Assembly (NCBI GenBank): GCA_036377595.1
Contig: DASUYB010000083.1
Coordinates: 1 to 64,000, forward strand
Length of the DNA: 64,000 bases
Direction: 5' to 3'
Origin: Longimicrobium sp.
GTDB taxonomy: Bacteria; Gemmatimonadota; Gemmatimonadetes; Longimicrobiales; Longimicrobiaceae
In this document: positions 2,399 to 40,200 of the stretch, one piece after another
How the letters are laid out: each line of letters starts with the position of its first letter
How positions within the stretch are numbered: the stretch's first letter is position 1
Notes under the pieces: generated by a model
The model's input: only the letters and a program-made list of their open reading frames with translations
The model's database searches: none
Told to the model about the DNA's origin: nothing
Translations under genes and position numbers: made by a program

Positions 2399-2977
2399 GT
2401 GGGTGCGGAGATGGATGCCGGAATCGTCCACACGTCTGGAGATCTGGAACAGGTCGCGCGGAGGTGGGAACGCGCGGACCTGATCCGCGTCTGGCAGGAG
2501 ATCAAGTCGCAGGCCGACGTCGCGGCGCGGCCGCCCGGGAAGGCGTTCGAGTATCTGGTGGTCCGGGCGTTCGAGCTCGAAGGGCTTGCGGTGCGCTGGC
2601 CGTTCCAGGTGACGTATCCGCACAGGTTCGGGACGATGGAGCAGCTCGACGGCGTCGTCTATCTCGGCGAGCGTACGTTCCTGATCGAGAGCAAGAACCT
2701 GGCTGAGCCTGCGACCATCGAGGTCATCGCCAAGCTCCGCTTCCGTCTCGAAGCACGGCCTCCGGGAACGATGGGCGTGCTCTTCAGCGTCCAGAACTTT
2801 ACCTTTCCCACGGAGGTCTTCGCGCAGTTCGCGTCGCCGCTCAACGTCCTGCTCTGGAGCAGCAAAGACCTCGACCATGCGCTGACACATGGCACGATGG
2901 TCGCTGGTCTTCGACGGAAGCTCGAATACGCGACCGAACGCGGACTGCCACTCCTCGCGCTGGGTGAGTCGCGATGA
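2399..2977 (+). CDS. PD-(D/E)XK restriction-endonuclease-like protein
   Basis: The 192-residue product has a plausible restriction-type nuclease core. Leading helices end in a KAFEYLVV segment, then come an acidic residue in QLDGVVYL and a strand ending in LIESKN, the order expected for D...ExK active sites of the Mrr/DUF91-like superfamily. The substrate is unknown. The gene overlaps the next by ATGA at 2974-2977, so the two are almost certainly translated together. The start is either GTG 2399 or ATG 2411, and neither has a well-spaced ribosome site. Base composition is slightly less GC-rich than recJ. The pairing with a TOPRIM-like partner suggests a nucleic-acid or defence role, which is inference. 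Confidence 0.65.
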   Translation: MGAEMDAGIVHTSGDLEQVARRWERADLIRVWQEIKSQADVAARPPGKAFEYLVVRAFELEGLAVRWPFQVTYPHRFGTMEQLDGVVYLGERTFLIESKNLAEPATIEVIAKLRFRLEARPPGTMGVLFSVQNFTFPTEVFAQFASPLNVLLWSSKDLDHALTHGTMVAGLRRKLEYATERGLPLLALGESR

Positions 2978-17237: not shown

Positions 17238-17564
17238 TCAGTAGCAGGGGAGCGCCATCATGGCCGCGTCGCCGCCGGCCTCGCCCGCGGCGTAGAGGTA
17301 CGTCCCGCACAGGTCCGTGACGCAGTAGTCGCAGCTGCGGCCCTGGCAGGTCGGGTCGAAGCACGTGCCCCAGCAGCTTTCGGGGCAGGTGTAGCAGCTG
17401 GCCGGACAGGTGGCCTGGCAGGTGTTGCAGCAGGTGCAGCAGCACGGATCGCAGCAGCACACGCAGCACAGGTGGCCGCGGACCGTCCCCCGTCCGCCCG
17501 GCGCGTGGGTGATCTCGAAGGTGTCCACCGAGATCGCGTCGAGGTCGAGCTTCACCTTTTTCAT
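17238..17564 (-). CDS. Conserved-leader peptide 1, 21 cysteines
   Basis: A 108-residue product opens with the shared leader KKVKLDLDAISVDTFEI and ends its leader at GTVRGH. The remainder holds 21 cysteines, starting CCVCCCDPCCCTCC and continuing as repeated TC / SC pairs. Residues after 85 are Cys-poor and end in PCY. No signal peptide or membrane helix is present. A GGGAGGG ribosome site precedes ATG 17564. The leader resembles those I know from pinensin-type lanthipeptide precursors, but the core is unusually Cys-dense and no LanB/LanC or other modification gene is in the window. Metal binding is an alternative. It is paralogous to the genes at 17731, 26944, 27205 and 39967. Confidence 0.8.
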   Translation of the reverse strand: MKKVKLDLDAISVDTFEITHAPGGRGTVRGHLCCVCCCDPCCCTCCNTCQATCPASCYTCPESCWGTCFDPTCQGRSCDYCVTDLCGTYLYAAGEAGGDAAMMALPCY

Positions 17565-17690
17565 CGCGCCCTCCCTGGTCCAGAAGTGATCGTCCGGCGG
17601 CCGCGGGGCGGGGGTCCGCCCGAGTGCGGGGGAGCGGCTCGCCGGGTGCCGCAAAACAGGTCCGATTTCGTGCTCCATTCAGCGCGCGGG

Positions 17691-17716
17691 GCGGGCGGCG
17701 CACCGGTGCCGCCCGC
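17691..17716 (-). terminator. Strong hairpin between the two poly-Cys peptide genes
   Basis: GCGGGCGGC 17691-17699 pairs with GCCGCCCGC 17708-17716 around GCACCGGT. The stem extends outward as CGCGGG/CCCGCG after one mismatch. It lies just after the stop of peptide 2 and may separate or attenuate expression of peptide 1. Confidence 0.55.
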
Positions 17717-17730
17717 CCCCGCGAACGCGC

Positions 17731-18072
17731 TCAGTACACCGGGTACTCCTCGCAGATGATCTGGTAGTTCGAGGGGCAGTAATCGCAGGTGCGGTCGCAG
17801 CTGCCGTAGCAGCTGAAGTCGCACGACCACTGGCCGGGGCAGGTGCCGCAGCTCTCGCAGGTGCCGCACGCCGTGGCGCAGGTCTGGCAGGTGCCGCACC
17901 CCGTCAGGCAGGTGTCGCAGGTGCCGCCGCACGAGTTGCCGCCCGTGCAGCAGCAGGGGCAGCAGCAACAGCAGCACACGTGTCCCTTCACGGTGCCCCG
18001 CTCCCCCTCCGCGCGCGTGGTGGTGAAGGTGTCCACGCGGATCGCGTCCAGGTCCAGTCGCAGCTTCTTCAT
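17731..18072 (-). CDS. Conserved-leader peptide 2, 25 cysteines
   Basis: The 113-residue product begins KKLRLDLDAIRVDTFTTT and its leader ends at GTVKGH, followed at once by six consecutive cysteines, a proline and three more. In all 25 cysteines are spread to residue 106, mostly as CxxC and CxxxC units separated by Gly, Thr and Ser. The tail is EEYPVY. ATG 18072 has a GGAGG site six bases upstream. It lies 166 bases upstream of peptide 1, in the same orientation. The repeating T/S-x-C pattern would suit lanthionine rings, disulfides or a metal cluster. Which applies cannot be told from sequence. Confidence 0.8.
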   Translation of the reverse strand: MKKLRLDLDAIRVDTFTTTRAEGERGTVKGHVCCCCCCPCCCTGGNSCGGTCDTCLTGCGTCQTCATACGTCESCGTCPGQWSCDFSCYGSCDRTCDYCPSNYQIICEEYPVY

Positions 18073-18435
18073 CGCGGCCTCCGTTGGTGGGATCTTGGAC
18101 TCTCCTCGGAGGCGGGCGACTCACCCGTCCCCGTACGCTCCCGCAGCCGGTCCGTGCAATCGAGATTGGCGATGAATTACGTCCGGATCAGTGTCTCTTG
18201 AGCGCAAGGTAAGTGGCCTTGCGGCGCCATCAAGAGGCTTGAGGCGCGTTTTCTGGAGATCGCGAAAAGTCTCAAAAACCACCGGACGGCGCGGTGGGAT
18301 CCGTCCCGGACAAACGGCTGGAGCTGTGGGGAGAACGGCCCACGGAAATATTCCCGGGCTCCATCTGGATTGTCTTAAAGATGCTGATGCGATGCGAGGC
18401 GAGAGCCGCGTCCCGGATGGTGGGACCCTTGTCCG
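18073..18435 (-). other. Gene-free spacer upstream of the poly-Cys peptides
   Basis: This 363-base stretch has no credible gene. It contains CTCTTGA at 18195-18201 and a matching TCAAGAG about 30 bases later, flanking an AAGG/CCTT pair, which could fold into a stem. It should hold the minus-strand promoter for the peptide genes, but I see no convincing -35/-10 pair. Base composition is lower in GC than the genes on either side. Confidence 0.4.
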
Positions 18436-26943: not shown

Positions 26944-27120
26944 TTACACGCAGCCGATCACGGTGCAGCCGCGCGCGCTCGGGCAGCGGTCGATCTCCGA
27001 GCCGCACCCGTTGAACGTCGGCCGCACGTGGGCCAGGACGGTGCCCTGGGCCTTCTCGGCGGCGGCGGTCTCGAACGACTCGACGGACAGCGTCTCGAGG
27101 TCGAGCTGGATCTTGCGCAT
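26944..27120 (-). CDS. Conserved-leader peptide 3, 4 cysteines
   Basis: A 58-residue open frame encodes the leader RKIQLDLETLSVESFETA, ending at QGTVLAHV, then a 27-residue core with four cysteines (GCGSEIDRC ... RGCTVIGC) and a terminal Val. It lies too close to the size limit for routine gene calling, but three features support it: the leader matches four other genes in the window, ATG 27120 follows a GGAG site, and a near twin lies 84 bases upstream. The core is compatible with a lanthipeptide or disulfide-linked peptide. No processing protease or modifying enzyme is adjacent. Confidence 0.78.
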   Translation of the reverse strand: MRKIQLDLETLSVESFETAAAEKAQGTVLAHVRPTFNGCGSEIDRCPSARGCTVIGCV

Positions 27121-27204: not shown

Positions 27205-27384
27205 TCAGCAGGTCTGCGTCGGGGCGCAGAAGCCGGTGGCGCACCCGTCGATGGGGGTCTGGCAGCCGTCGTTGGTGCCGCGGGTGGGCTCGTTGGCCAG
27301 CACGGTGCCCTGGCCGCGCTCGGCGGGGGCGGTCTCGAACGACGCCACCGTCAGGCTGTCGAGCTCGAGCTTGATCTTGCGCAT
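27205..27384 (-). CDS. Conserved-leader peptide 4, 4 cysteines
   Basis: The 59-residue product opens RKIKLELDSLTVASFETA, reaches QGTVLAN, and has a 28-residue core rich in Thr, Gly and Asn with four cysteines, ending in APTQTC. A GAGGAG ribosome site lies eight bases before ATG 27384. It is adjacent to peptide 3 in the same orientation; their leaders are nearly identical while the cores differ, the pattern expected of ribosomally made, modified peptides under diversifying selection. Thr and Cys spacing would allow thioether rings, but that is inference. Confidence 0.8.
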   Translation of the reverse strand: MRKIKLELDSLTVASFETAPAERGQGTVLANEPTRGTNDGCQTPIDGCATGFCAPTQTC

Positions 27385-39966: not shown

Positions 39967-40200
39967 ATGCGCAAGCTGAAGCTGGACGTCGACGCGCTGA
40001 AGGTGGAGGAGTTCGCCACCGAAGGCCCCGAGGTGGCCGCGCAGGGGACCGTGCGCGGGAACGACCAGTCGTATACGTACTGCTTCTGCCCGCACACCTG
40101 GGAGGACCTGGGGTGTGAGTCCGTCTCGGAAGACGACCAGTGCGTCTGCGAGATCCACAGCTATCTCAACGAGTTCACCTGCTACCCCGGCTGCATCTGA
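39967..40200 (+). CDS. Conserved-leader peptide 5, 7 cysteines
   Basis: The 77-residue product begins RKLKLDVDALKVEEFATE and reaches QGTVRGN, then has an acidic, aromatic core with seven cysteines: YCFCPH, LGC, QCVC, TCYPGC. An AAGGAG ribosome site lies seven bases before ATG 39967. It is on the opposite strand and 12.6 kb from peptides 3 and 4, so the family is dispersed rather than one tandem array. The core is unrelated to the other four apart from being Cys-bearing. Confidence 0.8.
   Translation: MRKLKLDVDALKVEEFATEGPEVAAQGTVRGNDQSYTYCFCPHTWEDLGCESVSEDDQCVCEIHSYLNEFTCYPGCI

Follow-up and report, generated by a model that had tools for sequence, protein, structure and literature searches.

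Within the 64,000 nucleotides of Longimicrobium sp. DNA analysed here (the window), two adjacent reading frames specify peptides of very high cysteine content. This locus raises the question of whether the frames are genuine genes and, if so, whether their products are to be regarded as RiPP precursors, to which their leaders point, or as metal-binding peptides, to which their cysteines point.

Two adjacent precursor genes

Both frames, with all their features, lie on the reverse strand (-), and they correspond to what an earlier note on this DNA had described. The first (17238–17564; peptide 1) encodes 108 aa, with 21 cysteines and 11 Ser/Thr in the core, which contains the stretch CCVCCCDPCCC; the second (17731–18072; peptide 2) encodes 113 aa, with 25 cysteines and 16 Ser/Thr in the core, which contains a run of six cysteines. 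Each product is composed of a leader, a poly-cysteine head and a tail made of xx[ST]C repeats.

The two leaders were left out of the leader HMM that was used to score them. The leader of peptide 1 (17472–17564, MKKVKLDLDAISVDTF...GTVRGH) reached 49.6 bits (E 1.6e-12) and the 31-aa, pinensin-type leader of peptide 2 (17980–18072, MKKLRLDLDAIRVDTF...GTVKGH) reached 55.4 bits (E 2.5e-14), whereas shuffled leaders gave at most 5.4 bits. Shine-Dalgarno-like sequences precede the ATG codons, GGGAGGG at approximately 17568–17576 for peptide 1 (AGGGAGGGCGCG-ATG) and GGAGG at approximately 18076–18083 for peptide 2 (ACGGAGGCCGCG-ATG); a Shine-Dalgarno site was present at 134 of 145 starts of the precursor family described below, versus 21 of 145 control windows. 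The reading frame of peptide 1 stays open upstream as far as 17678, and its start was placed at 17564 on account of the leader and the Shine-Dalgarno site. The GC content at codon positions 1, 2 and 3 was 0.51, 0.61 and 0.95 for peptide 1, and 0.44, 0.65 and 0.96 for peptide 2. Given the Shine-Dalgarno sites, the GC content of about 95% at third positions and leader scores far above those of shuffled leaders, both genes are almost certainly real.

A sigma-70 scan found no promoter for either gene, and peptide 1 had no match in the plasmid collection when searched by tblastn. No LanB/LanC or other modification gene, and no protease or transport gene, was seen near peptides 1 and 2; both are orphans in the window.

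The precursor family and candidate enzymes elsewhere in the genome

With peptide 1 as query, 125 matches were obtained in its own 7.2-Mb genome, and a leader profile identified 186 distinct precursors in 1.59 Mb of that genome, taken mainly around known matches. Since 16 further stretches yielded one precursor, itself near a known match, and reversed DNA yielded none, the genome probably holds about 190 precursors of this leader family in total, scattered over its length. The tandem pair of the earlier note consists indeed of adjacent genes, but it does not stand isolated from this dispersed family. The leaders follow the consensus MRKLRLDLDALAVESFATAAAEGARGTVRA (pattern MKKLxLDLDxLxVxSFxT...GTVx[AG][HN]) and usually end in GTVx[AG][HNR]. 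Three further precursors with the same leader type were located in the window, at 26944–27120 (-), 27205–27384 (-) and 39967–40200 (+), with ordinary cores ranging from 4 to 7 cysteines over the three; the last resembles the precursor at G000:C103:118054-118272.

Among the 147 members of this genome that are devoid of a CCC run, the number of core cysteines tracks that of core Ser+Thr (r=0.86). Similarly, [ST]C dipeptides number 415 in the family cores, versus 198±12 in shuffled cores. Both observations are as expected for lanthionine stoichiometry. Some cores also show patterns of their own: a subfamily whose cores begin with EQCTCxTxCTCPGCxTC (L056, 11132–11422 (-); also L092, L098, L100 and L105) is conserved across four congeneric genomes, and the precursor at L060, 7668–8021 (-), carries near-exact tandem repeats of TQCGGVETCGAGCDKVSAGPV.

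Members scoring over the cut-off of NF038180, the NCBIfam model of the pinensin leader, came from 7 of the 21 family genomes, while the 14 control genomes yielded none. Taken alone, the leaders of peptides 1 and 2 fall below this threshold; the members that exceed it belong to the same leader family as these two peptides, in this genome and in the genus. The leader family is already known at the level of an NCBI model. The kinship with RiPP-like peptides that had been proposed from the leader was borne out and could be refined to pinensin-type class I lanthipeptide precursors.

Candidate modification enzymes are encoded on contig C103, namely a LanB (PF04738), a separate LanB-C protein of 343 aa (PF14028) and a LanC (PF05147). 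The LanB-C protein matches TIGR03891, a thiopeptide-type model, and the LanC most resembles the LanM cyclase domain; 10 family precursors lie directly downstream of this LanC locus. The motifs WCHG, CHG and AHG, which we take from NisC to be the zinc ligands and the catalytic His, are invariant in 8 LanC orthologues. On contig C98, a second locus combines a LanB and a LanC with an ABC transporter, an S8 protease and several precursors, among them one with SNCSDC repeats. Its LanB was recognised by the genome search with PF04738 and gave no Pfam match when scanned as one long ORF. The C98 lanthipeptide locus also contains a transglycosylase (PF00912) gene (L041, 12982–15579 (+)), and the core of one of its precursors (L041, 15824–16096 (+)) is made of repeats such as CSNCSDCSNCSDC, with 17 cysteines and 19 Ser/Thr. 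Two other candidates were set aside: the LanC-like sequence on C145 is part of a kinase-like (LanKC-type) frame, and the LanB on C1 adjoins an NRPS gene.

Precursors were also found beside LanC in genomes G003, G009, G014 and G015. Furthermore, an orthologous LanC (E<1e-200) is present in 8 of the 21 family genomes. The same 8 genomes, and no others, have 15 or more precursor candidates; the 13 genomes that have no such orthologue contain at most 7 candidates each. The probability of this match (8/8 versus 0/13) arising by chance is 1 in 203,490, a figure weakened by the relatedness of the genomes.

Through its many members over the NF038180 cut-off, this family shares its leader type with the pinensin family of Chitinophaga (NF038180; Mohr et al. 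2015, cited in PMC7268733). In pinensin, the LanB parts are on separate polypeptides (PMC7268733), and in precursor family I 17, pinensin included, LanC resembles LanM cyclase domains (PMC7268733, Walker et al.); the divided LanB and LanM-like LanC of C103 are as reported for this group (PMC7268733). Unlike the pinensin family, the present one probably numbers about 190 precursors in a genome, most of them dispersed, its cores reach 25 cysteines, and peptides 1 and 2 possess a poly-cysteine head nearly free of Ser/Thr. With the prochlorosins and the SyncA-SyncM system (class II) it shares many precursors, conserved leaders, variable cores and few enzymes, but here class I enzymes take the place of LanM, the leader is of the pinensin type, the repertoire is larger and the cysteines per core are far more numerous. 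The largest repertoire that we found reported, the 79 SyncA substrates of SyncM, is smaller than the estimate of about 190 for this genome. In the open-access literature searched, no description of the expansion of this precursor family or of a lanthipeptide with a poly-cysteine head was found.

The poly-cysteine head and the cysteine surplus

In peptide 1, the head (LCCVCCCDPCCCTCC, approximately 17427–17468, motif match at 17427–17459) contains 10 cysteines and one Thr; in peptide 2, the head (VCCCCCCPCCC, approximately 17945–17976, motif match at 17945–17967) contains 9 cysteines and neither Ser nor Thr. In the tails, 11 cysteines are accompanied by 10 Ser/Thr in peptide 1 and 16 by 16 in peptide 2, a ratio of about 1:1 that provides ring-forming capacity. 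The earlier suggestion that the peptides could be of a new kind goes too far: the tail follows the usual family pattern, and the novelty is confined to the thiol head. Because the head is nearly free of Ser/Thr, at least 10 cysteines in peptide 1 and at least 9 in peptide 2 are beyond the lanthionine capacity; these minima are independent of the head/tail boundary, which was set by eye. A portion of each peptide probably persists in the form of free thiols, of disulfides or of a metal site.

The surplus of cysteine over Ser+Thr is 10 in peptide 1 and 9 in peptide 2. In these two peptides and in the homologue from genome G001 described below, it ranges from 9 to 11 (z 8.7–9.7) and is equal in size to the N-terminal head. 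Peptides 1 and 2 are the members with the largest surplus, and no other of the 186 precursors has a surplus of 3 or more. Cysteine makes up 27–30% of their cores, and the earlier statement that they are far denser in cysteine than ordinary lanthipeptides is supported statistically by this surplus (z about 9). Given the core composition, runs of three cysteines are expected (P 0.72), and six in a row are just slightly improbable (P about 0.03). The significant features are the surplus over Ser/Thr and the conserved head, not the run of six itself.

Absence from relatives or frameshifts had been named as signs of spurious frames. An intact poly-cysteine homologue, free of frameshifts, was found in one of the 9 other genomes of the genus (G001), where CPYCCCCPCCCTCCNTCCATC follows the same leader type, with 24 cysteines and 13 Ser/Thr, in a neighbourhood unrelated to that of peptides 1 and 2. 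When a degenerate DNA pattern of the conserved head motif, CCCxPCCCTCCNTC, was searched over the 395 genomes of the phylum sample, three matches were obtained, two in this genome and one in G001, and all three sit in leader-bearing frames. Between peptide 1 and the G001 head segment, the codon differences are synonymous except for one inserted Asp codon. Within these genomes, the poly-cysteine head is restricted to the genus.

Predicted maturation and alternative explanations

We consider it likely that peptides 1 and 2 are tandem orphan precursors of a trans-acting class I lanthipeptide system of the pinensin type, in which the thiol head is left unclosed. In the predicted pathway, the shared leader would bring each peptide to the C103 LanB, and possibly also to the C98 enzymes. 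The LanB dehydratase, consisting of a glutamylation part and the separate LanB-C protein of the elimination type, would act with the LanM-like LanC cyclase, all of them encoded elsewhere: Ser/Thr residues in the xx[ST]C tail would be dehydrated and then closed by tail cysteines, giving many (methyl)lanthionine rings. The leader would subsequently be cut off near GTVx[AG][HN], and the head cysteines would be left as free thiols, pair in disulfides or coordinate a thiophilic metal. The acceptance of such a poly-cysteine substrate by the C103 LanB/LanC is putative. Against this reading count the absence of modification, protease and transport genes beside peptides 1 and 2, the scores of both leaders below the NF038180 threshold, and the fact that a single head homologue is known, in a different neighbourhood.

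As to the head itself, we favour, speculatively, a soft-metal or redox-active thiol head carried on a rigid thioether tail. A lanthipeptide-metallothionein hybrid, in which thioether rings rigidify the tail and the spared head of 9–10 cysteines builds a metal-thiolate cluster, is conceivable though somewhat doubtful. Metal binding by the predicted thiol head is plausible; no metal-related gene was seen in the neighbourhoods of peptides 1 and 2 or of the G001 homologue.

The likeness to metallothioneins, already pointed out in the earlier note, lies in the cysteine density and cysteine runs of the head, and it might be supposed that both products are unmodified metal-storage peptides, whose cysteines all bind Zn, Cu or Cd and whose lanthipeptide leader was merely kept after duplication. 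The cysteine fraction of the cores, the surplus, the runs and the absence of a modification gene next to the two genes agree with this idea, but the tail retains the 1:1 ratio of Cys to Ser/Thr and the xx[ST]C repeats of the family, for which metal binding alone has no need, and the leader is fully conserved in both peptides. Searches of Pfam, NCBIfam and PDB sequences gave no match to a metallothionein family up to E 10. With a RiPP leader, a lanthipeptide-type tail and no detectable sequence relation, the peptides resemble metallothioneins in composition only and could at most work like them. Simple metal storage therefore seems improbable to us. It is also quite improbable that the head has no function of its own and arose by neutral slippage at TGC triplet repeats, in an expendable copy of the precursor. 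Such an origin would suit the prevalence of TGC codons in the runs, the tandem paralogues, the presence of the head in only one other genome and the modest P value of the six-cysteine run; it is difficult to reconcile with Pro, Thr and Asn interrupting the head at the same places in a second species, with synonymous TGT and CCC/CCG/ACC/ACG variants, and with intact, leader-bearing frames around every motif match.

Cysteine runs also occur in thiopeptide-type cores, and a RiPP chemistry other than lanthionine formation could act on the head cysteines, either azole/thiopeptide-like (YcaO) or of the MNIO (DUF692) type. The match of the LanB-C protein to TIGR03891 and the one MNIO gene of the genome would be in line with this. 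However, YcaO azole chemistry on the head is unlikely, because no YcaO gene (PF02624) was found in this 96%-complete genome, and the single MNIO gene, on C89, is not beside precursors of the leader family and adjoins a small CxxC peptide that has another leader and is apparently its own substrate. Taken as a whole, a non-lanthipeptide modification of this sort is very improbable. The small peptide next to the MNIO gene (MADTIERYPTLEPTDPKDPTYCPACLSG..., L144, about 2400–2570 (-)) may mark a separate MNIO RiPP locus.

If peptides 1 and 2 are indeed lanthipeptide precursors modified in trans, the enzymes would handle cores of 21 to 25 cysteines and leave 9 to 10 of them unlinked, which would put the choice of thiols by LanC to the test. 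The mature peptides would represent a natural design in which thioether rings are combined with a site for metal or redox chemistry. Moreover, about 190 precursors would depend on perhaps one or two LanB/LanC sets, more than the 79 substrates of SyncM, and the family would be to class I what the prochlorosins are to class II, in a phylum that has been little studied.
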